Source of the DNA: a virus
Virus record (IMG/VR): IMGVR_UViG_3300010211_000007
Location: 1-20,234 of that record
Direction: 5' to 3' (one strand)
Length of the DNA stretch: 20,234 nucleotides
Shown here: positions 6,408-20,221 of the stretch, one piece after another
Numbering within the stretch: position 1 is the first letter of the stretch
Layout of the letters: every line of letters starts with the position of its first letter
Translations under genes and position numbers: made by a program
The notes under the pieces: model-generated
What the model saw: only the letters and a program-made list of their open reading frames with translations
Databases searched by the model: none
Told to the model about the DNA's origin: nothing

Positions 6408-6689
6408 GTGGTTAAAGCAAAATGCGAGAAAACCTGTTTTGTTAAGGGAAAAATCTGGAATCCCGGTGATATAAGGTTTTTTAACAGCAAGGCAGATGTT
6501 GAAAATTGCTTCAAGTACGTTGAGGACGTCAAGGAAGACCCCTCAGATGATTCTGATGCAAAACCCTTTTCTCAGTGGACAAAAGACCAGTATCTGGAGA
6601 AAGCAAAAGAGAAAAAGATTGAAATCCCTGAAGATGTGAAAACCCGGGATCAGATCCGCGATTTTCTCAAGGACAAAATTGATCAGTAA
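6408..6689 (+). CDS. Small phage protein with C-terminal HeH/LEM-like domain
   Basis: The 93-residue product starts at GTG 6408 behind a G-rich AAGGGGGG site. Residues 1-40 (KAKCEKTCFVKGKIWNPGDIRFF...) look like the short beta unit common in small head-tail-region phage proteins, a basic strand followed by a 'G..Y/W..GD' turn. A flexible acidic linker (EDPSDDSDAK) leads to residues about 57-91, WTKDQYLEKAKEKKIEIPEDVKTRDQIRDFL, which fits the 'L...A.E..I.IP.....++.I...L' pattern of HeH/LEM/Rho-N-like helix-extended-helix domains. Those domains often bind DNA or RNA or act as adaptors. It is the last gene before a strong terminator. Specific function is unknown. Confidence 0.6.
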   Translation: MVKAKCEKTCFVKGKIWNPGDIRFFNSKADVENCFKYVEDVKEDPSDDSDAKPFSQWTKDQYLEKAKEKKIEIPEDVKTRDQIRDFLKDKIDQ

Positions 6690-6732: not shown

Positions 6733-7356
6733 ATGGCAGATACAGAACTTGAAGTGGTTAACCTGGCATTGAACAGAATCGGGCATAAATCAATCGAGAA
6801 TCTAGAAGATGGGACAAATCAGACCGCAGTTCTCATGAAATCCTTTTACAACGGTACAGTCAATGAAATGCTCTCTGTATTCCCATGGAATTGTGCAGTC
6901 ACTCGGGCTGAACTTTCCCTTACTTCTGAGGTGAATCTGACCCAATATAACAACGGTTATGATCTTCCAGAAGGAGTACTCAGAGTCCTTGATATCGATG
7001 GGGATAAAAAGAAGACCTACCGCATAGAAGGTAAACAGATTTTCACCGATGAAGGGAACAGTGACCCTTTAACTATCAGAATCCGTTACATACAAAAGCT
7101 TTCCGATGTCACCGCCTGGGATGAATTCCTTGAAGAAGCGATAGCTCTTCGTTTAGCTGAAAAAGCTTGTATGAAGATAACAAAGAATCTGACTTTAACA
7201 TCCTACCTGCAACAACAGGTTATAACTGCACTGAATATTGCCCAGCAATCTGCTAATGCAGAAGACCGCGAGGATCTGAGTAATATTATTGCCAGCATCA
7301 ATAATTCCAAAATGGCCGACATCATGATGTCAAAAAATAATTACGCACAGGGGTAA
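6733..7356 (+). CDS. Tail tubular protein A-like adaptor (T7 gp11 type)
   Basis: The 207-residue product shows the signature of the podophage adaptor, or gatekeeper, family: an N-terminal 'VVNLALNRIGHKSI' helix, 'MKSFYNGTVNEML' and the conserved 'FPWNCAVTRAEL'. These proteins form a ring between the portal and the tail nozzle. The C-terminal half has 'EEAIALRLAEKACMKIT' followed by a Gln/Ala-rich helix, also normal. It starts at ATG 6733 right after the terminator and is followed 3 bases later by a second protein of the same family. The first gene after a terminator being the gp11-like gene matches the T7 gene 10/11 junction. Confidence 0.82.
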   Translation: MADTELEVVNLALNRIGHKSIENLEDGTNQTAVLMKSFYNGTVNEMLSVFPWNCAVTRAELSLTSEVNLTQYNNGYDLPEGVLRVLDIDGDKKKTYRIEGKQIFTDEGNSDPLTIRIRYIQKLSDVTAWDEFLEEAIALRLAEKACMKITKNLTLTSYLQQQVITALNIAQQSANAEDREDLSNIIASINNSKMADIMMSKNNYAQG

Positions 7357-7359
7357 TGG

Positions 7360-7935
7360 ATGACTAAGGTTGAATTATTCAATACGGCGCTCTCTACTTT
7401 GGGAGTTGAATTGTTATCAAAGGAAACAGATAAAAGCCGGAATGGTGAATACTGCCGGTCATTCTATCCTATGGCTGCCCGAGCTGTTCTTACCTCTTTC
7501 GACTGGAACTGTGCCAGGAGAAGGATTCTATTGAACGCAATTGACGTGAATGCCCAAGGATATAATGCTGATCTGACTGACTTTGAGTATCAATATGTAT
7601 TGCCTTCTGATTGGCTTAAAATGGTTTCAATCAATGACTCCCCTGAAACAAAAAGGCTCATTGAGGCTGGATATCTGTATTGTGATTCTAACGATATCAA
7701 ACTGGTTTACACATCGAGGGAGATTGAGCCTGAAGTGGCCGGTGATGAACTCCCATTTACAGAGTCTATGTGTAATGCAATTGGACTCTATATCGCTTAC
7801 CGCTTATCTCTATCGATAGTCAAAAACTCCCCAGCACAACTCCTCTACCAGGAATACACACAAGCACTATTGGATGCACAGGGGCAGGATGCCATGGATA
7901 AGGAGCAAGATCAGATTGGGGGATGGATTGAATGA
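7360..7935 (+). CDS. Second tail tubular A-like protein (paralogue of 6733-7356)
   Basis: The 191-residue protein repeats the pattern of its upstream neighbour: 'ELFNTALSTLGVELL' near the N-terminus, 'RSFYPMAARAVL' and 'FDWNCARRR', then a helical C-terminal half (GLYIAYRLSLSIVKNSPAQLLYQEYTQ). The shared core is N.AL...G, SFY and F.WNCA.R, at similar spacing. It therefore looks like a diverged tandem copy, or a functionally split adaptor, where one protein meets the portal and the other the nozzle. Start ATG 7360 follows AGGGG (7349-7352). The stop overlaps the nozzle gene by 4 bases (ATGA). Family membership is supported by motif alignment by eye only. Confidence 0.68.
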   Translation: MTKVELFNTALSTLGVELLSKETDKSRNGEYCRSFYPMAARAVLTSFDWNCARRRILLNAIDVNAQGYNADLTDFEYQYVLPSDWLKMVSINDSPETKRLIEAGYLYCDSNDIKLVYTSREIEPEVAGDELPFTESMCNAIGLYIAYRLSLSIVKNSPAQLLYQEYTQALLDAQGQDAMDKEQDQIGGWIE

Positions 7936-9659
7936 GTAAGTCCTCACCGATACTGACTGATTTCACCGCAGGTGAACTTTCTAGGAAATATGCCTCAAGG
8001 GTTGATGATCCTATCTATTCAAAGGGAGCAAGGCGCATGGAGAACATGCGTCCGTTAGCTCAGGGAGGTTTTAGAAGCACTGGCGGAAGCTGGTTCGAGA
8101 TGGGATTAACATCTGGAGTGTCTTACAGGCTGATTCCTTTCATGGTTTCAGAATCTGTCCGGTTTCTTATAGTTCTCAGCCCTGGAAACCTCATAATCAA
8201 TAAAGTTAATGATGATGGGTCATTGGATTTAAATACCACTATTGCTGCCGGCACGACCTACAGTCCTGCTCAATTAGGTGAAGTTAAGTTTTGTCAGAAT
8301 GCTAATGAAATGTATTTCACCCACAGAAATCATACTCCCCGGGTTCTAACCTATACAGGTACCGGACTTGAATACTCCGACATGGAGTTTACAACCAATA
8401 CAGGTGAGGATATTCCTTTCCAGAAGAGTACAGATTATCCAGCAAACTGCACATTCTTCAGTGGAAGACTGTTCTTCTCAAATACTATTTCAAAGCCTCA
8501 AGGGATATGGGCTTCTATTCCTTATGAGTCCGGGAATTTCACAAAGTTCGAATTAGTTGAAACTACAGTTACCCAGATTAAAGATAAATCAGAATGGGAA
8601 GATCCTGAAGAACCAGAAACAGAGGAAGTCTCAACAACCAAGACTGTGATCGGAGACGGCAATTCCTTCAATTTTGAGATTGCGTCTGAACAAAACGATA
8701 CCATTGTCTGGATGGCTCCTGCTGAGGATCTTCTTATAGGAACTTTGTCATCAGAGTGGACTTGCCCGAAGGAAATCACCGCCAATGATTTATCAGCAGA
8801 TTTAATCTCAAGAATTGGGACTGCCAATATACAGGCGAAACTAGTGGGAGGTTATATTATCCTGATTCAGCGGGGAGGCCGAAAGGTATGGCAGTATGAC
8901 GGGAAGAACTCGACCGATCTGACGTTTAATAATGATCAGATGGCAGAATCACCCATCATCGGCTTTGATGCCCAGAAAATCCATGACCAAATTATATTCT
9001 TTGTCCGCGAAGATGGACAAATCGCTGTTCTCATGTATTCACCGGCTCATGATATCCAGGGATGGTATCGGCTAAAAGATGACAATTTCTCCTACCTCTC
9101 AGTAGCTGTTGTTCCCACAGAAAAGGCAGATCATGTTTATGTTATTATCCGGGATACTGACGGTGCTCAACGCATTGAGAGACTTGATGAAGATTGCTTC
9201 ACAAGGGCATCAGAAAGAGTTGTTATCGCTGGTGGTGTCGGGGCTGTTACGAATCTCGCCGGAGATATTCAGGTATGGAAATCTGGCTCATTTGAGCAGG
9301 TTTCTGCCGTTAATGGTTCATTCAATACGACCTTACCAGACGGCGAGTATTATGTTGGGTACGGCTTCTCTTCTATTCTTGAAACAATGAGCGTTGAAGT
9401 TCAATCCGAGATAGGCCCCGGGCAGTTCAAGGAGAAATCAGCCTCAAACATCTATATCCAGGTGAACAAAGGAGGAGAATTCGGAGTCGGATATTCTTCT
9501 GATCCTGCTTCTTTGAAAACGGTAAATGGCACAGGCCTCGTAACCTCTGATTTCCACGGTGGGTATGAACAGGATCTATCAATCATGGTTTTACAGGAGA
9601 AAGCCTATCCCCTTGAGATCACTGTCCTCATGCCTGAGATTGAAATGGAGACCATATGA
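7932..9659 (+). CDS. Tail tubular protein B-like nozzle protein (T7 gp12 type)
   Basis: The 575-residue protein opens with the hallmark of podophage tail-nozzle proteins, 'FTAGELSRKYASRVDDPIYSKGARRMENMRPLAQGG...STGG' (residues about 11-53), followed by a mostly beta-rich body with WD/propeller-like features such as 'GWYRLKDDN' and 'VYVIIRDTDGAQRIERLD'. In T7, gp12 (794 residues) forms the hexameric nozzle that the tail fibres and DNA pass through. This version is shorter. The C-terminal part has a small beta region (SSILETMSVEVQSEIGP). It starts at ATG 7932 with GGGGGATGG upstream and overlaps the previous stop. The next gene overlaps its end by 4 bases. Confidence 0.8.
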   Translation: MSKSSPILTDFTAGELSRKYASRVDDPIYSKGARRMENMRPLAQGGFRSTGGSWFEMGLTSGVSYRLIPFMVSESVRFLIVLSPGNLIINKVNDDGSLDLNTTIAAGTTYSPAQLGEVKFCQNANEMYFTHRNHTPRVLTYTGTGLEYSDMEFTTNTGEDIPFQKSTDYPANCTFFSGRLFFSNTISKPQGIWASIPYESGNFTKFELVETTVTQIKDKSEWEDPEEPETEEVSTTKTVIGDGNSFNFEIASEQNDTIVWMAPAEDLLIGTLSSEWTCPKEITANDLSADLISRIGTANIQAKLVGGYIILIQRGGRKVWQYDGKNSTDLTFNNDQMAESPIIGFDAQKIHDQIIFFVREDGQIAVLMYSPAHDIQGWYRLKDDNFSYLSVAVVPTEKADHVYVIIRDTDGAQRIERLDEDCFTRASERVVIAGGVGAVTNLAGDIQVWKSGSFEQVSAVNGSFNTTLPDGEYYVGYGFSSILETMSVEVQSEIGPGQFKEKSASNIYIQVNKGGEFGVGYSSDPASLKTVNGTGLVTSDFHGGYEQDLSIMVLQEKAYPLEITVLMPEIEMETI

Positions 9660-10054
9660 CCCGGATTGAACTTGAACGGATTAACATCAACCGGCTGTTT
9701 AAAGAGTCATCCTTACCGGTGGTGACACTGGATTCGATGGCTTCCTGTGGGAAGCATATGCATATCATCGGTGGTTATATCGAAGGTAAGACAATATTCC
9801 ATACCGGGATTATTGATTATGGCCCCCAGTGTGGAGAAGTCTGGAGCCGGATAGAGGATATGAAGTATCGAATGTCCGCTGCCTCGAACATCCGGGATCT
9901 CATTGACCATATCGCATGCCATGACGGGTACAGGGAAATCGTTTCTTCAGTGCAGAAAGGCAATACTCAACTTAACAGGTGGTCCGAATGGCTCGGTATG
10001 GAGTACATAGGTTCAACCGAGTTTCACGATCATTTCAAATGGAGGGGTATCTAA
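9656..10054 (+). CDS. GNAT-like phage protein (gp13-position)
   Basis: The 132-residue protein sits between the nozzle and the gp14-like gene, the place of T7 gp13. It matches the general shape of GNAT-like phage proteins: 'GEVWSRIEDMKYRMSAASNIRDLIDHIACHDGY' and a final 'NRWSEWLGMEYIGSTEFHDHF', which is the 'RWaerlGFe.eG' ending of that fold. The acetyl-CoA loop (RxxGxG/A) is not visible, so it may be a degenerate fold with a structural role rather than an active acetyltransferase. It starts at ATG 9656 (overlapping TGA), with TGGAGA upstream, and its TAA shares a base with the next ATG. Function is inferred from position and fold resemblance. Confidence 0.55.
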   Translation: MTRIELERININRLFKESSLPVVTLDSMASCGKHMHIIGGYIEGKTIFHTGIIDYGPQCGEVWSRIEDMKYRMSAASNIRDLIDHIACHDGYREIVSSVQKGNTQLNRWSEWLGMEYIGSTEFHDHFKWRGI

Positions 10055-10938
10055 TGGGTGTAACAGCCGCAATTATAGGAGCCGCATCATTTGCTCTCAG
10101 TGTTTATGGGACCATTGAAGAACAAAAAAGGCAAGAACGCCAGAGTGAGTTCAACGAGCAGATGAATGAGTTGAACTATAAGGAAGGGATACAGAATATC
10201 ACGAATGCCCGGACATCCTTGGACACAAACTACACCCAAACCAAGGACACGATGGCGGAGCAGCTTACTCAAGCTCAGGAATCAACCGCCAGAAAAACAT
10301 CTCAGATTGAAACAGCAGCAGATAATCAAAGGCAATCCACTTCGGATGCGTATGCACTGCAGGTGGATCAGACTACACAGAATGCAGCCTATGCGAAAGA
10401 CACTATTGTTGATCACTCAAAAGCTGCCGCCCTAGCGGCGTCTCAGAAAAAAGGTGCTTCCGCTTCTTCCGGTGTGAAGGGCGGGACTGTCAACGATACC
10501 CAGGCTCTCCTGGAGCAGGACAATCAGAATTACCTTGATCAGTCCAGCCAGAAACTGAGTGATAACATTAAGAATTTCCAGACTCAATCTGATCTGTACT
10601 TCAACGATGCAGACGAGCAGAAGAGACTGGCTTATCAGACTGCTCAAGAAGCAAGGGAAGAGCTCTCTGATTATACCGAAAGATACGACACTCAGTTGAA
10701 GCAAATGGACGAGTCCTATAATCAGAAAACTGAGGAACTTAACCAAGCTGAAACCATTCTCACTGAGAAATACAAAGCTCAAGCAGCTTATGAAAGTGAC
10801 ATGTATTCCTATATGACTTCCGGTACCTGGCTCGATATCGTCGGGGCCGGACTCTCATCTTTCAGTTCCGGAATCTCAATGTACAACGCCACGAAGGACA
10901 TTGATACCAGTAATTGGTTCAAATGGGGTGGATCGTGA
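10054..10938 (+). CDS. Internal virion (ejection) protein, T7 gp14-like
   Basis: I place the start at ATG 10054 (294 residues), with GGAGGGG (10041-10047) 6 bases before it; the frame extends back to 9979 but no ribosome binding site serves that start. The N-terminus is a hydrophobic segment (VTAAIIGAASFALSVYGTI, residues 3-21), followed by a long Gln/Ala/Glu-rich coiled coil, a Gly/Ser patch (GASASSGVKGG) and a second glycine-rich hydrophobic segment near residues 257-279 (GTWLDIVGAGLSSFSSGISM). T7 gp14 inserts in the outer membrane during DNA ejection; two amphipathic or hydrophobic ends with a helical middle fit. There is no cysteine. Role inferred from architecture and gene order (nozzle, GNAT-like, this, two large core proteins). 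Confidence 0.65.
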   Translation: MGVTAAIIGAASFALSVYGTIEEQKRQERQSEFNEQMNELNYKEGIQNITNARTSLDTNYTQTKDTMAEQLTQAQESTARKTSQIETAADNQRQSTSDAYALQVDQTTQNAAYAKDTIVDHSKAAALAASQKKGASASSGVKGGTVNDTQALLEQDNQNYLDQSSQKLSDNIKNFQTQSDLYFNDADEQKRLAYQTAQEAREELSDYTERYDTQLKQMDESYNQKTEELNQAETILTEKYKAQAAYESDMYSYMTSGTWLDIVGAGLSSFSSGISMYNATKDIDTSNWFKWGGS

Positions 10939-10984
10939 TTGATTCACCATATTCAGACTCAATAAAACTAAACTGAGGAAAATA

Positions 10985-12784
10985 ATGGCTGGAGATAATG
11001 CCTACACCAGATTTGCTAATACTCTGAACTCAACGTCCAACAACATTGCCCGTAATATAGCCCAGATAAACTATGAGAAACAGGAGCTCGCAGCGACTTC
11101 CCAGCTCACGAAAAATAAGGAGCAGTTTGACAGTCTCCTTCTGGATATGGAACAGAATCCAGGGGATTATACGACAATCCAGGAGCGATTTAACGCCAAG
11201 GCAAAGCAGATTCAGAGCGAGGGAGGATCTGCTTTAACCGGACCTCTCGCTCTGAGGATGTACCAACAGGCAACAGAGAAACAGATGGCAGATTACTCCG
11301 TGAGAGCCAGAAGCCTTGCGGATCAGCTTGATATGAACAACGCCAAGCAGAATATGGCAAATAACCTGGACTACATGATCAATAACATTCGTTTTGATTC
11401 ATCTGGATTCCAGGAAGACACTGGGAAAATCGCCACTCTGATAGGTGGATCATCCCTCCTCCTGTCGGCAGAAAAGGAAGCAATGATCATGAAGTATCAG
11501 GATGCTGCTATGAGCAAAGCCGCGAATGCTGGAGCACGGGCAATTTTCGATTCTACTCAGGGCGGGTATTCACAGAAAGGAGAAGCAGCCAGAGCCTGGT
11601 TGTCATCTCCTGAAGGCGCTCAGAGTTTAAGAGATGGAGGGTTGTCAACTGATCAATTTGAAAAAGTAAATTCAATGATCAACTCCTGGGAAAGTGAAGC
11701 ATATATCAGGCAGAACCGAATACATGATGAAACTGACATGAGACTAGATGAGAACATCTGGAAATCAATTAAGAGTGGCAGTATTTCGGATGCAAAGGCT
11801 CTCTGGCTTGGAAGCAACTTCTTCAGTGAAGAGAAGAATAAATACTGGGATTCATTCTTCAGAGCAAGGGAAAATGAAGCTAAAACAATCGATAAGTCCA
11901 AAGGTCCAGAACAAAAGGCTATTGCTGAGGCAATGGTGGATGATTTGAAAGAACAAGTCAGCTCAGGGGAAATGAGTATGACCGATGCAATAAATATATC
12001 CGAGTCATGGGAAAGTGATTATGGAAACAATCCATATATGGGCGGAGTTTTCAGAGAATCAAACGACTATTTCAAAAACCCAGAGTTATCTGGAAATGAA
12101 GCATTTAAGACCGGACTTGATTACTTTAAAAATACAGCAGCAACTATGAAGCTGAAGGAAGAAAATCCAAAACTATATGCATTCATTGAAACACATCTTA
12201 AAGACTATGCCATGGACCCTAAGAATTCCGATCTGAAAGACCCACAGAAATACAGACAACTCGTTGATGATCTGATCAGAGAACCAATCATCAGAAAGTT
12301 GAATGAAAGCGACACTATCCGTACAGGAGAAAAGGGTTTGGGAGTTGATGCGTGGGGTATCAATTCCTCCGAAAAAATCACACAGGAATTTCAGGATGGA
12401 AACTTCCGATCTCTTATGAAGCTGGACAGTAATGGTGATGTTGATACTGCTTATTACGAGCAGTGGATTAAGGCTTGGGGATTTGAAGGTAAGAAGAATG
12501 GGGAGTATATGGATGTCGGGAAAGTCCTTGATACCTATATGAACGATTTCCATTCCGCTGCACAGCGTGATTTCAAAGATCATTTCTATGTCCACATGGA
12601 TGATAACTCTGGTAGACCGATTATAGAGAAAAATGGGGAGAAGTATGTCCTTCAGATTGTGAATAACCAAGAACAAAAAAGGCTTAAAGAGCTTGGTATT
12701 GTTGCTCGGAAAAACAATGAATCCTGGTATAGATGGAATCCATCAAAAGGCATTTATGAGTTCTACAAAGAGGTAGGTGAATAG
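10985..12784 (+). CDS. Internal virion (ejection) core protein, T7 gp15-position
   Basis: The 599-residue, mostly helical, charged protein lacks signal peptide, transmembrane helices and cysteines. The N-terminus is rich in Asn/Ala/Gln (FANTLNSTSNNIARNIAQINYEKQELAATSQ), typical of phage core proteins that form helical tubes. No enzyme motif is visible. The order gp14-like, this, giant protein corresponds to T7 gp14-gp15-gp16, so I read it as the gp15 equivalent, part of the periplasmic channel. It starts at ATG 10985 behind GAGGA (10975-10979). Its TAG abuts the next ATG directly. The second half of the gene is AT-rich (about 32% GC in bases 12121-12180 by hand count). Homology to gp15 is an inference from position; sequence similarity could not be tested. 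Confidence 0.55.
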   Translation: MAGDNAYTRFANTLNSTSNNIARNIAQINYEKQELAATSQLTKNKEQFDSLLLDMEQNPGDYTTIQERFNAKAKQIQSEGGSALTGPLALRMYQQATEKQMADYSVRARSLADQLDMNNAKQNMANNLDYMINNIRFDSSGFQEDTGKIATLIGGSSLLLSAEKEAMIMKYQDAAMSKAANAGARAIFDSTQGGYSQKGEAARAWLSSPEGAQSLRDGGLSTDQFEKVNSMINSWESEAYIRQNRIHDETDMRLDENIWKSIKSGSISDAKALWLGSNFFSEEKNKYWDSFFRARENEAKTIDKSKGPEQKAIAEAMVDDLKEQVSSGEMSMTDAINISESWESDYGNNPYMGGVFRESNDYFKNPELSGNEAFKTGLDYFKNTAATMKLKEENPKLYAFIETHLKDYAMDPKNSDLKDPQKYRQLVDDLIREPIIRKLNESDTIRTGEKGLGVDAWGINSSEKITQEFQDGNFRSLMKLDSNGDVDTAYYEQWIKAWGFEGKKNGEYMDVGKVLDTYMNDFHSAAQRDFKDHFYVHMDDNSGRPIIEKNGEKYVLQIVNNQEQKRLKELGIVARKNNESWYRWNPSKGIYEFYKEVGE

Positions 12785-15700
12785 ATGGATGTCCCAGGTG
12801 TAAGTACTTCGGATGATAACAAGAATAGTGTAACTGATGAGTTTAAGAACTGGTTTGAAATTGTACCTTCAATAGAGGAACAGAAAACCCCTAACTATAA
12901 TCCCCCTTATGCAGATCAGATGCCGCCAAAATCTCCGGTCCAGGCATCCCCTGATATGCCATGGTACAAGATGGCTCCTTCTACAGATCAGGTCAAAAGG
13001 GAGGAAAGTGAAAACCTCCGAAATTGGGTGATTCAACATTCCCAGAATCCAGAAGAAGAGCTTGCGAAGCTCCGATCCGCTCAGTACCTTGCTGCCAAAG
13101 CTGATATTGACCCCACATACGTATATAACAATTTCGAAGCCGTGACGAAGGATTATTACGGCCAGCCTATGTCAGGGATGAGCACCTTCCAGGCAATTAA
13201 CAACTCCTGGAAAACGGGCAAAATATACAGCCAACTTGGGGACCTCTATTATCAGCAGATCAACGGTGACAGCACAGAAGAAACACAGGCGAAGATTGAT
13301 AAACTTAAAAGCAGTCTTCCTCCCGTTGATCAGCAGAAAAGATGGATTCCAACTCAAGCTTTAAAAGCTGCAGCTGAAATGATCCCTATGTCCATAGACG
13401 GAGCAAAAGAGGCAACAGGCCAAGGACTTGTTTATGGCTTGGGGGGTGCGACAACTGCGGCTATTGGCGGCCAAGCGGGTCCTCAAGTTGCTTTCCCTGA
13501 AGAAATCGTCACCATTCCATCTGCATTTGCATCAATGTACCTAGTTGGACAGCTATCTGGTATGGCTGAATCTACATTCAAAAAAGAGTCGGGTCTGGCA
13601 TATATGGATATGCTTGAATATCAGGATACTGATGGAGCCAGGATTGATCCTGAAATAGCCAAGATGGCTTCAATTGGGATTGGTGCTCTTAATGCTGTAG
13701 TTGAGACAACTCAGTTCACAACGCTCCCCGGTGTTGACAATATTGTCAAGAAAGCCACAAGTCAAGCTGTCAAAAAGATAATTCAATCTGGCACTCTCCG
13801 GAAAGTAGCCTGGGAATTCTCAAAGGAGTATGGCGGATCTATTGCTTCAGAAACAGCGCAAGAGATGCTTCAGGAGATTTTCAGCATCACTGGAGAGGAG
13901 ATCTCAAAAGGATTATCTGGAGTAAGAGGAAGCAATACACAGGAAATTGTTGAACGGCTTATGGAAACTGCAAAACAGTCAGCTTTGGCGTTCTCAGTTA
14001 TGGGGCTCCCTGGATCTGTTATGAATGCGAATGTATCAAGCGCTGTCCGGCAGATGAGAAGTCCTGTCGGGATTATTAAAGTTGATGATACAACTGTTAT
14101 TCCCGGCCCCGATTCAAAACTTTTTAGAACCAGCACAACAAGTACTGCCGCGTCGATCCAGAGCATAGAGATTGCAGGGAACACTTCCAATGAAGGAATC
14201 AAACTCGCCCAGCAGCAATATGAAGCAGCCAAAGACGGTAAGGGGACGATACCTCCGGTAAAAGTCATCATGGGAGAAGATGGCACCTATCAGGCTGTAG
14301 ATAACGATATGCTGCAGGTGCTCTTGGAGAACGGTGAACAAGCTCTGGAAGTGGAGATTGTTGAACCGATACAGAATACTAAGATCACTGAATCTCTTTC
14401 GAAACCTAATTGGATGAAGAATTCCCAGGATTTTAATGAATGGAAATCCAGTTTCACCCAGAGAGAAGCCCAATTCAAAGAGGCCCAGACGATTGAAGAC
14501 TTCGAATACAACGTCAGAACTGCTTTCCCGGACATAGCCGACAGCGAAAGACAAGCTGTAGTTGCCATGGTTGAAGCCAGGGCGGCTGTAAATGGCATGG
14601 ATGTATCTGAGTATATTCAGAATACCTTTGACACCAAGGTGTTCACTACAGAGAAGATTCCGGGGCAGTCCTATAAAGCGGCTGCTGAATTCAAGGAATC
14701 CGGGAAAGCTTTGATCCACCTGACTGAGCTGTCTGACTTTTCATCATGGGTACATGAATACGGCCATATCATCAGGAAAGAGCTGCCCCAGTCAGATCTG
14801 CAGATCCTTCAGGATCATTATGGTGATCAGGACTGGACGACAGAATCAGAGGAATCATTTGTCAGAGACTTTGAGGACTATCTGCATAAAGGGAAAGCTC
14901 CCAGCGAAGAGCTGAGGACTCTATTTCAGAAAATAGCGGCAGGCCTGAAGAAAGTGTTTGACCGTATTGGCAGGACTCTGGATGAAACCAGGAAACTGTC
15001 AGCAGAAGTGACCGATGTTTTTGACCGTATTTTCACTCCCCAGGGTGATGTCAAAGCTGATTTATCACAAAAAATTCAGCAAGAGCAGCAAAATTGGTTT
15101 GTGGCACAGCCCACAGACCAATGGTTTGAGAAAACAGAGAACAGCCGTTCTATCCCTCTTGAGCAGATAGAGAGAAGAGAGGAGATTCAGGATACTGCTA
15201 AACTACAAAGAGCACAGGAGAACATTCATCAGGCCGAAGCTGGAACCGGCCCGAAGAGAGCTCCCGTAAAGGTTTTGGAAATTTCCAAAGGGAAATACAG
15301 GATTGTTGACGGAAATACAACCTGGCATGTTCTGAAAGATAAAAATGCCGCTGCTCTGGAAGCTGAAATTGTTGAGATGAAACAGCCGACTAGAGATCTT
15401 TCTGAGTTATATTCACTGGTAGAAGAATCCCTAGAAGATCTTGATTCGTTTACGGCTTTTTTTGCTGACAAGTTTAAAGGCTCTGTACTGCAAAGACCTG
15501 TTAACAAAGAAAGCGGGAAACGATTGAAAGCCAGGGACCGGGCTGCGAGGAAACTGGAAGAGGTTATTGGAGCTGAAAGGATTTTTGATCTTGCCGGTTC
15601 GACAGTTGTTTTCAAAGATATCACTACAATAAAAGAGGCTGTGAAGACAGCCCTGGAAGACCCCAGGGTGATCAGGTTGAAAGACCGTTATGATAAGCCC

Positions 15701-18700
15701 GCTCCCGGCGGATACATGGATGTTCTGATGAATATCAGGGCTAAGAACGGAGCTGTCATCGAAGTGCAGTTCAATACTCTGCAAATGGTGGATGCCAAGA
15801 AAAAAGCAGGGCATACACTGTATGAAGTTATAGATCAAACTGAAACGGCATTTAAGGAAGGGAAAATAAGTGATTCTGAAAAAGTAGCTGCTATAAAAGC
15901 AGCCGTTGATGCGAGTGAGAAGATCTATTCAGCAGCCAAGGCTGCCATTTTGGAAGACAACATTTTTTCAATGTCTTCTTTTGATATTTCTGAAGAGTTG
16001 GTCATTATCTCGGACAATTTGACAAGGTCACCAGCCGGAGAGAGTGTTCTATCCGGTAAAACTTTAAATAAGTTGAAAGAACTATCGATGGCGATAGGGA
16101 AGTCTTCCCAGTCTGCGAATTTTAATCCTTCTGAATCGATGGTCATGGGCTCTGACATAAATAAATCCTCCGACCATTTAAGTATACTTGATCAAGCAGA
16201 TGGGAGCAATATCATAGATCTGAAGGATCTGTTATTTCAGGGCATAGAACTATATGAAGACTCTGATGGTGTAATGTATAATAAACATGAGAAGGGTTTT
16301 AATTATGAAAGCAAAGAACTGTCCCGACAATTCCAGAAAACCTCAGAAGAACTTGGACTCCTCGAAGAGGGAGGAATCTTTTCTGATGACGGAGGAGATG
16401 AAGGACTGGGCGAAAAACGGCTATCCGGACGACCAACCGACAATTCCTTACTCCAGCAATGGAAAAAGCAAAAAAGAATAGATTTCACAAATCAAATATA
16501 TGAAGATACAACAACGCTGGCTGAAATGTTTTCAGTTTATAGAAACCCATTGAATGAGTATTTTCATATAATTTACACAAACGATAATAATCAGATCCTG
16601 GCACATAATGTCATGTCCTCTGGTATACCCGGGCGGACAATTGCTGTCGATTCTTCCAATCCATCCAAAAGCATGTTTAACCTAGAAGAAAGAATGAAGC
16701 GACTTAATGCCACAGGGTACTATTTACTTCATAACCATCCTTCAGGAAATGTCTCAGAATCTAATGAAGACTTGAGACTGACAGCAAACTATGCTCAGAA
16801 CGTCAAAGGGTTCATTGGTCATATCATTCTGAATCATGATCAGTTTGGATTTATTGGGAGAGGACTCCATGGTACTCAGCATAAATACAGCCCCAAAGTG
16901 GAGTATATTTCTCGGAATTTAACTGACAAGGGATTCACAAGCCCTCAAATGATAGCAGATTACACCAAGTCCATGATGCCTGATGATGGTAGAGAATTAC
17001 TTCTCTATCTGGATAATCAGAACAGAGTTGTCCTTGCTGAACCAGTAAAAAAAATAAATCACCAAACCGCATACCAAAAAATGAGGGAGATTGGCGCTTC
17101 AAATATGGCATTTGCGACCAGTTCAAGAGAATCATATGATTCTCTCTGGAAAGCTGATGTTGAACTCCAGAATTCTTCTGAACTCTCCATTAAACACTAT
17201 GATGTTTTTCTCGACATTCTGCTGATGGAATTTAATGATCAGGGTGAATTTACAAATGTTGAATCAGCTGTGGAATGGACCCAGAAGAGGCCCTCTGGTT
17301 GGCAGTCAGCTTTAATGTCACGGCGAAAAAGAAGAGGATATGTTTGGGAAGATGAAATTCTCTATCAAAACACAGAACATGAAGAAATAATTCGTAAGGC
17401 TATTGAGGAGTTTAAGCCGGTTCCTCAGGATGTCCTGGACGAATACGGAGATAGGGACTGGGCCATACGCGAGAACCGAAGAAGGGAAACTTTGAAGAAG
17501 TACTCCTGGCTGGTTGATATGGCTTTTGGAATGGACTCTCCTGATGAGTTCAAAGATTTTATACTGAGAATCGGATCAGCGGAAGAGATTGATGCTGCCC
17601 GGAAACTCGGCGGCGAAGGGGAAGAGAGGTTTTACAAAGAGATCTGGTCAAGGGCCAATCTCAAAACCAGAGAACAGGCAAATAACGAGTTTATCAAACG
17701 GTATGCCAATGAAACTGCCGTGACCGCCCTGGCCATCGAGGTGACGGCTAATCCGGGAGTATGGAAGGGGAAGGGGATTCCAGGGTCTATCTGGATGCTG
17801 GGGAACAGCTTCAAAGGGAGTACTAAGCAAAATGCCAGGGAACGTTTTGTCCAGGCTGCAATCACTTCGGTCAAGAATAATCCTCTTGCAATCCGCCAGG
17901 CGTTTGCCTCACAGAGCGGGGATCAAACAGATATTACTCAGCTGCAGTATGAAGAAGAAATTGAAAATGCTACTCCAGAAGAGGTTGTCATCGGCAGACT
18001 ATCAACAGAAGACCGACTGAAGGAAGCCGCCAAGGCAGACGATCCAAAGATCCGAGCCATGCTGCTTTCAGGAATTGGTACAGATTCGGAATCCCTTGTC
18101 CAGTTTGATCGGGAGATGCACCAGAGGATGGGTGTGTTGAAGTCTCAACACACTAAAGAGGTTGAGAAGCTGAAGAATCTTTTGAAAGCCAGTGACTCAA
18201 AGTTAGACGACTTTATCAGCAGCAGGGAAAGACTCTCTGATGCGTTGAAGAACGCTAAATCAGAGGCTGAAAAAGAAGCATATAAGAAGATCCAGGAATT
18301 CAAGGCTGAAATGATTGCCAAGCAGAAGCAGCAGAAAGAGGTCCAGGAAATCAAGGACAGGATGAGAAAGCTGGCAAAGAATATCCTCCGGAAACCTGCA
18401 GAGGATTGTCATTACTCATTTAAAGAAGAAATCAGGGAGATTCAGGACGGACTGGACGGAAGATTCAGAAGGCAGAAAACAGCCGAGGCCCTGAAGAAAC
18501 GCCGGGAATTTTACGAAGCAAACCCGGAAGTTAAAAAGTTGATTGATCCAGAAATCCTCAAAGTGATCAATCAGAAGCCTTTGAACGAATGGACTCTGAT
18601 TGAACTGGAGAATCTGAATAACAAGGTCAATAGGCTCCGCCAGATGGGAAAGGAGAAACAGCAGCGGATAGTTGAAGATCGCAAACAGAAGGTTCTGGAA

Positions 18701-20221
18701 CTGGCTTCAAAGATGGCTCTTGAAATTGGTAATGGAAAAATTGCCACAGTCCCCAAATATGCCACCAACACTGATGATTACAAGGAATGGAAGAAAACCG
18801 GAAAGGTCGACGCTGTTATGCTCAATACGCTCAGGCCGTCAAGAATCCTGAAGGATCTGGCCGGTGAAAATTCCGAGTTGGTAAAGTTCTTCTGGGAAAA
18901 GATGAATCAGCATACTGATGAATCAATACGCAGGAAACTGGAACGGATTGAAGCCGGGAAAAGGAAAATGGCTGAACTTGGTATTACTAAAAAGGAACTG
19001 GCCCAGAAAATCCTTATCCCTGGAGCAGAGGAAGACCCACAGTCTGTCAATGACGTTATCCATATGTATATCACCCGGAAGAATGAGAAGAACTGGAGAG
19101 CCATTGTTCATGGAGTCGGAGTCAAGAATCCCGGGAAATACATTCAGCATCTTACAGCCGAACAGATGGCTCTTGGTGACTTTATTGCCGCTGATTTTGA
19201 AGCACATCATGAAAGATATGCTGAAGCCTATGCCGTGGACAAGAATGATATCCTGGGGAAAGTTCCAGGGTATTTCCCAATGAAAAGGCAGTCTCTTTTG
19301 AATGAAGCCAGAAATGATGAGGTCATGAGGGACATGGGAACCTCCGCCGGTGTTATGGATGGTTATGCAAGTCGGAACAGTACTAAGAAGAGAATAGATA
19401 TCGGAGATGAGCACCAGGCGCCGATCCGTATGGGAGCATGGGATCTTTGGATGGAAGAAGTAGAAAAGCAGGAGCACTATATTGCCTCTGCCAGGTATAT
19501 CAAGGAGATGCACGGCATTTTAAAGAATCCAGCGTTTCAGGCGGCTCTTGTTGAAAAACATGGGCATGGAATAATTCAATGGTTTGAGAAGTACATCAAC
19601 GAATTCGCAAATCCGAATCTGTATAAATACTATGATGCAGTATCCAAGGTCTCCAGAGTGCTCAGGAACAATACGGCTCTGGCTTATCTTGCCTATAATA
19701 CTTTGACCATTGCCAAACAGGCTCCTTCCCTTGCTCTTTTTATGGGTAGAGTCGGGCCTCACAGATTGATGGCTGCCTCAGGGAAATTTATGAGCAACCC
19801 GGTGAAATGGTTGGATTTTGTGAATGAGCGAGATCCTCAGATGAAAGAAAGATCCATGGACCGGCTATTGGAGGAATTAAAGCTGGAACAGGAACACCCT
19901 GTTCAGAAAGCAATCAGTCAATTGGGCCAGATTGGAATGAAGCCTATTATGATGGTAGACAAGATGGCCACAACTATAGGATGGCTAGCTGTTTATGATG
20001 CCCATATTCTACAGGGTGAGGATGTTGCCATCAAGAAAGCCCAGGAGTCGATCCTTGAAACTCAGCCTGCAGCAAGAGCCAAGGATCTGGCCATGCTATA
20101 CAAATCAAACGAGGGATTCAACTGGTTCTTGATGTTTACCAACCAGATTAACCAGCAGTGGAACATTATGACCAGCGATATTCCCCGGGCAGTCCGTCAG
20201 GCACAGGTTAACCACATATAA
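12785..20221 (+). CDS. Giant ejected polyvalent protein (gp16 position) with peptidase, RelA/SpoT-like and JAB modules
   Basis: The frame encodes 2478 residues, nearly twice T7 gp16 (1318), and follows the gp15-like stop without a gap. N-terminal Gly/Ala-rich hydrophobic stretches (about 210-265) could touch membranes. A ParB-like 'PVKV...G.Y..VD' module is at 491-527, an HEYGH metallopeptidase motif at H657-H661 with downstream acidic ESEESF, and a second ParB-like copy at 827-864. A RelA/SpoT-like segment spans about 900-1020 (D935, GGYMDVLMNIR, E993 in VIEVQFNT). A RadC/JAB segment has HNHPSG with H1316, H1318, S1326 and D1329 in exact JAMM spacing. Long charged helices follow (about 1778-1890), then a C-terminal region like those of large phage polyvalent proteins. 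No transglycosylase motif is visible. It is probably ejected with DNA. Only one Cys (1875) is present. The end at 20221 may be premature. Module calls are motif-based; enzyme activity is unproven. Confidence 0.75.
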   Translation: MDVPGVSTSDDNKNSVTDEFKNWFEIVPSIEEQKTPNYNPPYADQMPPKSPVQASPDMPWYKMAPSTDQVKREESENLRNWVIQHSQNPEEELAKLRSAQYLAAKADIDPTYVYNNFEAVTKDYYGQPMSGMSTFQAINNSWKTGKIYSQLGDLYYQQINGDSTEETQAKIDKLKSSLPPVDQQKRWIPTQALKAAAEMIPMSIDGAKEATGQGLVYGLGGATTAAIGGQAGPQVAFPEEIVTIPSAFASMYLVGQLSGMAESTFKKESGLAYMDMLEYQDTDGARIDPEIAKMASIGIGALNAVVETTQFTTLPGVDNIVKKATSQAVKKIIQSGTLRKVAWEFSKEYGGSIASETAQEMLQEIFSITGEEISKGLSGVRGSNTQEIVERLMETAKQSALAFSVMGLPGSVMNANVSSAVRQMRSPVGIIKVDDTTVIPGPDSKLFRTSTTSTAASIQSIEIAGNTSNEGIKLAQQQYEAAKDGKGTIPPVKVIMGEDGTYQAVDNDMLQVLLENGEQALEVEIVEPIQNTKITESLSKPNWMKNSQDFNEWKSSFTQREAQFKEAQTIEDFEYNVRTAFPDIADSERQAVVAMVEARAAVNGMDVSEYIQNTFDTKVFTTEKIPGQSYKAAAEFKESGKALIHLTELSDFSSWVHEYGHIIRKELPQSDLQILQDHYGDQDWTTESEESFVRDFEDYLHKGKAPSEELRTLFQKIAAGLKKVFDRIGRTLDETRKLSAEVTDVFDRIFTPQGDVKADLSQKIQQEQQNWFVAQPTDQWFEKTENSRSIPLEQIERREEIQDTAKLQRAQENIHQAEAGTGPKRAPVKVLEISKGKYRIVDGNTTWHVLKDKNAAALEAEIVEMKQPTRDLSELYSLVEESLEDLDSFTAFFADKFKGSVLQRPVNKESGKRLKARDRAARKLEEVIGAERIFDLAGSTVVFKDITTIKEAVKTALEDPRVIRLKDRYDKPAPGGYMDVLMNIRAKNGAVIEVQFNTLQMVDAKKKAGHTLYEVIDQTETAFKEGKISDSEKVAAIKAAVDASEKIYSAAKAAILEDNIFSMSSFDISEELVIISDNLTRSPAGESVLSGKTLNKLKELSMAIGKSSQSANFNPSESMVMGSDINKSSDHLSILDQADGSNIIDLKDLLFQGIELYEDSDGVMYNKHEKGFNYESKELSRQFQKTSEELGLLEEGGIFSDDGGDEGLGEKRLSGRPTDNSLLQQWKKQKRIDFTNQIYEDTTTLAEMFSVYRNPLNEYFHIIYTNDNNQILAHNVMSSGIPGRTIAVDSSNPSKSMFNLEERMKRLNATGYYLLHNHPSGNVSESNEDLRLTANYAQNVKGFIGHIILNHDQFGFIGRGLHGTQHKYSPKVEYISRNLTDKGFTSPQMIADYTKSMMPDDGRELLLYLDNQNRVVLAEPVKKINHQTAYQKMREIGASNMAFATSSRESYDSLWKADVELQNSSELSIKHYDVFLDILLMEFNDQGEFTNVESAVEWTQKRPSGWQSALMSRRKRRGYVWEDEILYQNTEHEEIIRKAIEEFKPVPQDVLDEYGDRDWAIRENRRRETLKKYSWLVDMAFGMDSPDEFKDFILRIGSAEEIDAARKLGGEGEERFYKEIWSRANLKTREQANNEFIKRYANETAVTALAIEVTANPGVWKGKGIPGSIWMLGNSFKGSTKQNARERFVQAAITSVKNNPLAIRQAFASQSGDQTDITQLQYEEEIENATPEEVVIGRLSTEDRLKEAAKADDPKIRAMLLSGIGTDSESLVQFDREMHQRMGVLKSQHTKEVEKLKNLLKASDSKLDDFISSRERLSDALKNAKSEAEKEAYKKIQEFKAEMIAKQKQQKEVQEIKDRMRKLAKNILRKPAEDCHYSFKEEIREIQDGLDGRFRRQKTAEALKKRREFYEANPEVKKLIDPEILKVINQKPLNEWTLIELENLNNKVNRLRQMGKEKQQRIVEDRKQKVLELASKMALEIGNGKIATVPKYATNTDDYKEWKKTGKVDAVMLNTLRPSRILKDLAGENSELVKFFWEKMNQHTDESIRRKLERIEAGKRKMAELGITKKELAQKILIPGAEEDPQSVNDVIHMYITRKNEKNWRAIVHGVGVKNPGKYIQHLTAEQMALGDFIAADFEAHHERYAEAYAVDKNDILGKVPGYFPMKRQSLLNEARNDEVMRDMGTSAGVMDGYASRNSTKKRIDIGDEHQAPIRMGAWDLWMEEVEKQEHYIASARYIKEMHGILKNPAFQAALVEKHGHGIIQWFEKYINEFANPNLYKYYDAVSKVSRVLRNNTALAYLAYNTLTIAKQAPSLALFMGRVGPHRLMAASGKFMSNPVKWLDFVNERDPQMKERSMDRLLEELKLEQEHPVQKAISQLGQIGMKPIMMVDKMATTIGWLAVYDAHILQGEDVAIKKAQESILETQPAARAKDLAMLYKSNEGFNWFLMFTNQINQQWNIMTSDIPRAVRQAQVNHI

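Follow-up and report, generated by a model that had tools for sequence, protein, structure and literature searches.

A predicted podovirus ejection protein combining RelA/SpoT-like and RadC-type modules in one polyvalent chain

The genes for phage polyvalent proteins are situated among the late virion genes, and in the survey of Iyer et al. (2017), RadC was confined to the polyvalent proteins of conjugative elements (PMC5512222). Podophages such as T7 and PhiM1 eject proteins that precede the DNA and build a conduit (PMC11440229), and in N4, a multidomain protein of 3500 residues, one domain of which is of the HExxH type, is ejected at ~4 copies (PMC12633501). Exported alarmone synthetases, which are related to one of the modules described below, inhibit growth when they are cytoplasmic, and SaEAS works at a rate of ~1e5 per minute (PMC12691689). 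Here, we describe an open reading frame (ORF) at positions 12785-20221 (+) of the virus record IMGVR_UViG_3300010211_000007, which was analysed over its complete length of 20,234 bases (the window). Its product of 2478 residues is predicted to be an ejected phage protein of the polyvalent type, with modules in a new combination. This class of proteins is already known, but the module set and the pairing of a RelA/SpoT-like with a RadC-type module appear to be undescribed; what is unusual is this RelA-RadC pair, and not the fact that effector domains are carried at all.

Constant ends and exchanged cargo

Between its two ends, the protein carries, in this order, a ParB-like module, a zinc peptidase (HEYGH), a second ParB-like module, a RelA/SpoT synthetase-like module and a RadC-type JAB module. 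All of these are encoded on the plus strand, like the other parts of the ORF and the two genes preceding it. The glycine-rich N-terminal block (residues 140-420; 13202-14044) matches phrog_28077 (E 8e-14) and was found, by a profile and hmmsearch, to be common to ~25 large proteins of other podophages. The C-terminal block (residues 2154-2473; 19244-20203) opens with a G-Y-F-P motif, matches phrog_9880 (E 1e-34) and is present, by the same approach, in about a dozen podophage large proteins. It is preceded by a middle region (approximately residues 1500-2150; 17282-19234) with a net charge of +10 and coiled-coil-type stretches, which is covered in part by the phrog_9880 match and gave weak matches only.

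Segments of the protein are shared with eight phage records, and profiles of the N-terminal block, the peptidase (residues 624-773) and the C-terminal block recovered the same arrangement in IMG/VR relatives, the complete proteins of which measure ~2000-3900 residues. Constant ends and variable cargo hold across ~30 relatives. The cargo consists of ART in MW202640 and of PBECR5 in Carin1, both of which have LPD22 near the N terminus, whilst a methyltransferase and weak ART matches are found in MD07, PBECR5, Peptidase_M15_3 and SLT in locus L010, and RadC, PBECR3, ART and LPD3 in L027. On these sequence comparisons, the two end blocks are what the members of a podophage protein family in the gp16 slot have in common, and the parts between them are swapped among phages, lysozyme-type cargo included. 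This bears out the original prediction of a phage-type polyvalent protein, in that effector cargo sits between two conserved ejection-type ends. Its suggestion that the module order may be undescribed also stands: no other instance was found in the collections searched, and others may hold it. When viral contigs were scanned with single sequences, neither the complete protein nor its RelA-RadC stretch led to relatives, and the EAS alignment found none either; profiles did recover them. The alignments of the C-terminal block and the peptidase were too divergent for use in pattern scans. In one relative (L011, 9269-16597), a stop breaks the large gene into two frames, both of which match the N-terminal block.

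The gene itself consists of 2478 stop-free codons beginning with ATG, with AAAGAGGTAGGTGA directly upstream, and its TAA stop lies 13 bases short of the end of the record. The GC (guanine plus cytosine) content at the three codon positions (0.53/0.36/0.45) and the number of stops in the two other forward frames (118 and 205) indicate that the ORF is coding and did not arise by chance. It is the last gene in a series of late genes on one strand, which encode the terminase large subunit, the portal (phrog_332, E 4e-126), a protease/scaffold-like protein, the major capsid protein, two tail tubular A proteins, tail tubular B, a gp14-like protein and a protein of 599 residues. The gp14-like internal virion protein (10048-10938) matches PF24072 (T7_gp14) with E 8e-4, under the cut-off, and phrog_805 (internal virion protein) with E 7e-4, and the 599-residue protein in the gp15 slot (10985-12784) is without a family match. 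As the last of the internal-core genes, the ORF thus stands at the gp16 position. The gene order up to this slot recurs in annotated or cultured podophages, and in annotated phages with a homologous gene, the latter follows, as it does in the window, the genes for tail tubular and internal virion proteins. Together, the ORF, module and operon analyses confirm what had been proposed earlier, i.e., an uninterrupted frame in the gp16 slot with peptidase, ParB-like, RelA/SpoT-like and JAB-like modules.

The RelA/SpoT-like and RadC-type modules

The RelA/SpoT (SYNTH) alarmone-synthetase-like module comprises residues 872-1090 (15398-16054). It was overlooked in a Pfam scan of the whole protein and recovered when the protein was scanned in slices (PF04607, 29.1 bits versus a cut-off of 27). 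A profile built with two Photobacterium relatives finds Tas1 (E 4e-13), SAS2 and SaEAS in the PDB, and it recovers 36 exported RelV/VpEAS-type loci in GTDB genomes, mostly of Vibrionaceae, whereas long frames, of the size of housekeeping RelA/SpoT, have scores far below those of these loci. An AlphaFold2 model of the module, built with 28 of the recovered sequences, reached a predicted local distance difference test score (pLDDT) above 90 in the core. The best matches to its fold are without exception alarmone synthetases, among them Tas1 (Z 15.8; root-mean-square deviation 2.5 over 163 residues), SAS2 of Bacillus subtilis (Z 15.3) and SaEAS (Z 12.5). The RelA/SpoT-like character that had been read from the sequence is thereby upheld, and the SYNTH fold of these residues can, on the model, be considered established. 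The residues D935, K966, Y977, E993 and Q995 are kept, with D935 and E993, the equivalents of the catalytic Asp and Glu, invariant in the synthetase alignment. As read from the alignment, D935, K966, E993 and Q995 are the equivalents of D121, K154, E182 and Q184 of SaEAS (residues of SaEAS according to PMC12691689).

No RelA module was found in 30 relatives of the 2478-residue protein. Among 398 Pseudomonadota genomes, RelA of the phage subfamily was found only in frames of ~256-397 residues, none of them polyvalent. In a synthetase tree, the sequence of the window pairs (90/89) with that of another viral contig, L076 (see below), with long branches leaving the placement unsure; housekeeping RelA/SpoT loci, which the profile used did not recover, were left out of this tree. 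Two synthetase genes of the RelV/VpEAS type are arranged in tandem in Photobacterium sp. DA100 (14611-16455 of locus L036), where both have N-terminal signal-like sequences, and tandem genes of this type are also present in several other Photobacterium genomes. In Bordetella phage PHB04 (7257-9522), gp034 adjoins the portal gene and has an exported-synthetase-like domain, and shortly thereafter follows gp032, annotated as a metal-dependent phosphohydrolase. Possibly, these two form a pair of synthetase and alarmone hydrolase in a cultured phage.

The RadC-type JAB module, together with a conserved C-terminal extension, comprises residues 1222-1494 (16448-17266). The JAB-like assignment made earlier is well founded: PF04002 scores 43.4 bits versus a cut-off of 22.1, and the JAMM motif is complete (HNHPSG..S..D). 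The motif residues H1316, H1318, S1326 and D1329 and the upstream E1258 are invariant in five sequences. With 41.6 bits versus a cut-off of 180 for NF000642, the module is not an equivalog of cellular RadC. A second, tandem JAB in the extension was considered and remained unproven (hhalign probability 0.6%; a weak match of the Pfam RadC model there, E 0.17). In the 398 Pseudomonadota genomes, the extension was found in a single frame of 435 residues. Among viruses, a RadC-type JAB occurs in at least nine other large proteins (L019, L024, L027, L078, L079, L080, L081, L083 and L085). Because of this recurrence, the boundary drawn in 2017, when RadC was seen in conjugative elements only (PMC5512222), no longer holds.

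The RelA-RadC pair was found again in L076 (IMGVR_UViG_3300044580_000304), a contig of 63 kb that also encodes a terminase, a portal-like protein, a weak match to MuF and an SNF2 helicase protein. Its polyvalent protein of 1514 residues (7943-12484) has RelA at residues 91-282 and RadC at 512-778, i.e., in a single chain and in the same order, with 28% identity to the window in RelA (E 4e-22; range ~28-34%) and 35% in RadC (E 1e-41). However, this shorter protein belongs to another type of phage; it has no homologous N- or C-terminal block, and the rest of it has no match to the 2478-residue protein. This suggests that the pair moved as a unit, which is favored over its having been joined twice; since an unrelated phage carries the same order, RelA-RadC may be regarded as one transferable cassette. 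A bolder proposal, which we consider rather unlikely, is that the pair is a dedicated two-part effector cassette of unrelated phages, in which the synthetase, with D-x-x-G-x-T as a shared non-canonical ATP motif, would modify a nucleotide or the end of an RNA, whilst the RadC-type enzyme would process the product or its target, so that the virions would inject a nucleotide-signalling device in finished form. In L076, a G-x(n)-[FY]-x-x-x-x-WV-x-P-x-EV motif occurs three times near the module borders, possibly as a linker or processing signal.

The GC content of the RadC module is 38% versus ~45% elsewhere, which fits acquisition of this module. As the record is metagenomic, such a drop below the surroundings could also betray a chimera of at least two separate genes, produced by an assembly or base-calling error. 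This explanation is hardly credible: the frame is single and free of stops throughout, L019, L024 and L085 hold the N-terminal block, RadC and the C-terminal block in one frame and in the same order, and RelA and RadC of L076 lie in one frame as well.

The peptidase, the ParB-like pair and neighbouring genes

The zincin-like metallopeptidase module (residues 624-773; 14654-15103) contains HEYGH at 657-661, and E690 and E697 are invariant across seven aligned sequences. The module occurs in 14 other loci, two of which are identical. No Pfam model matches it, and it is assigned to the zincins on the basis of the HExxH motif and of how such modules have been described before (PMC5512222). In L020 (7859-16171), the peptidase module is seemingly split, with the HExxH half at residues 1447-1516 and the Glu half at 1586-1677, separated by an insertion of ~70 residues.

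The peptidase is flanked by two ParB-like modules, at residues 441-534 (14105-14386) and 776-870 (15110-15394). Their local alignment scores 85, as compared with a mean of 26 and a maximum of 51 in 2000 shuffles; judged by this alignment, the two are an internal duplication around the peptidase. The second module matches SbnI of NCBIfam, a family of the ParB/Srx type, with E 9e-4, below the cut-off. The model of the first module is of low confidence (pLDDT ~60-77) and has the b-a-b-b-a-b order of ParB/sulfiredoxin; its fold matches are weak (Z 3-4.7), mainly to ParB, Noc, SbnI and sulfiredoxin. A ParB-like nature of both modules is probable from these models and matches. The pair is absent from all relatives examined.

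Further upstream in the window, two genes for tail tubular A (adaptor, phrog_394) adjoin at 6733-7356 and 7360-7935 (E 1e-39 and 1e-30), where usually one is present; the gene for the tail adaptor is duplicated in tandem. A small gene at 6408-6689, between the capsid-associated and the tail genes, matches endonuclease VII (phrog_3281, E 2e-6).

Proposed role and comparison with known systems

The product of the gene is likely to be the large ejection protein of a podovirus, located in its internal core, with a second role as a carrier of polyvalent effectors. Within the head, a few copies would be seated on the portal, from where they would leave through the tail ahead of the DNA. The ends of the protein would help to form the conduit through the envelope, and the cargo would reach the cytoplasm by delivery from the virion rather than by a secretion signal. 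There, the zinc peptidase would probably free the modules through self-cleavage. The synthetase-like module may make an alarmone or otherwise pyrophosphorylate a nucleotide or tRNA end, presumably to throttle the growth or the defences of the host during the first minutes of infection, whilst the ParB-like and RadC-type modules may act on nucleotides or nucleic acids, and the RelA-RadC pair may function as one transferable cassette. If so, alarmone-synthetase-like and RadC-type enzymes would arrive ready-made, ahead of any phage gene expression. As a rough estimate, 4 copies, as in N4, working at the 1e5 per minute of SaEAS would make ~4e5 molecules per minute, or ~0.7 mM per minute in a cell of 1 fL; hence, few copies could matter. 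Furthermore, the presence of RelA-RadC in two unrelated phages offers a small construct for probing the targets of the widespread, biochemically unexplained RadC-type JAB.

Several observations weigh against this reading. In the synthetase, the Arg of the ATP site (R124 in SaEAS, R330 in Apk1) is replaced by G938 and an Asn (N169/N370) by L981, and no alarmone hydrolase gene was seen within the 20-kb fragment. The peptidase announced in the original prediction is borne out by HEYGH and the downstream Glu but not by its fold, as no zincin was among the matches of the AlphaFold2 model, which is of moderate confidence (pLDDT ~74-89 near the motif). For the ParB fold, the basis is a model of low confidence and a single weak family match; here, the earlier reading was right in that the module is present but had missed its duplication around the peptidase. 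Finally, the protein had been said to replace gp16, which holds for the slot, behind the gp14-like and gp15-slot genes, but not for sequence homology: significant homology to T7 gp16 was not found. The C-terminal block has weak local similarity to gp16 residues 661-716 (hhalign probability 7-13%, E 0.002-0.005 in a single comparison), the N-terminal block none by hhalign, and scans of the complete protein and of slices, N-terminal ones included, did not find an SLT transglycosylase domain.

Because of the replaced Arg and Asn, the synthetase could have lost or changed its activity, and together with the strong divergence of the modules (see the identity of RelA to its closest relative, L076, above), this would suit a purely structural core or channel protein, in which the enzyme-like modules are degenerate remnants or fillers without catalysis after ejection. 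We consider this unlikely, albeit worth keeping in mind. At 20-35% overall identity, the synthetase still has its D/K/Y/E/Q/H/Y set, HExxH with its Glu and the full JAMM motif are retained as well, and the relatives carry other enzymes as cargo instead. Moreover, where exported synthetases have D-x-x-R-x-T or -S, the synthetases of the window and L076 share D-x-x-G-x-T, and since L076 keeps this signature, the change from Arg to Gly is better explained as a trait of a subfamily than as random decay. Thus, catalysis by the synthetase is plausible, possibly in an altered form. It is improbable that the modules, instead of acting after ejection, serve chiefly to counter rivals or superinfecting phages in the cell that produces the phage or harbors it as a lysogen. 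Exported and MuF-linked synthetases are indeed known antibacterial toxins (PMC12691689, PMC12226406), but the constant ends and the late-gene position group the 2478-residue protein with the virion proteins, and the window has no adjoining immunity or hydrolase gene, unlike PHB04 with its phosphohydrolase gene.

The proposed ejected effector carrier can be compared with several known systems. It resembles T7 gp16 in its place behind gp14- and gp15-type genes, but differs in the lack of an SLT match and in the weakness of the local similarity. The virion RNA polymerase of N4, gp50, is a giant protein ejected in few copies, as is predicted here for the 2478-residue protein, and carries an HExxH domain towards its C terminus; an RNA polymerase domain was not found in the 2478-residue protein. 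With SaEAS, VpEAS/RelV and Tas1/Apk1, it shares the SYNTH fold and the equivalents of D121, K154, E182 and Q184, with the exported synthetases of the RelV/VpEAS type as the closest sequence family and Tas1 as the closest solved structure. In contrast to the exported synthetases, the module is internal, is without a signal-peptide-like start and has Gly and Leu as the equivalents of R124 and N169.

Cobetia phage Carin1 gp32 and its homologs (L002-L008) occupy the same slot and are homologous in the N-terminal block, the C-terminal block or both, and the majority also have the peptidase, but they differ in their cargo (PBECR5, ART, methyltransferase) and are without a family-level match to RelA/SpoT or RadC. 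The IMG/VR loci L019, L024 and L085 have the N-terminal block, the RadC-type JAB with its extension and the C-terminal block in the same order, but are without RelA, ParB-like or recognised HExxH peptidase modules. As in other phage-type polyvalent proteins (PMC5512222), at least two disparate catalytic-type domains are found in one chain (RadC-JAB and RelA_SpoT, both above their Pfam cut-offs, and the HExxH module), and the gene lies among late virion genes, with terminase, portal, major capsid protein, tail and gp14-like genes upstream. The protein is likewise a huge multidomain late-gene product with a putative zincin peptidase as its hub, and its ParB-like and RelA/SpoT modules are of the phage type as described there. 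What sets it apart from these proteins is that RadC is joined to RelA/SpoT, ParB-like modules and a peptidase in a predicted phage ejection protein.
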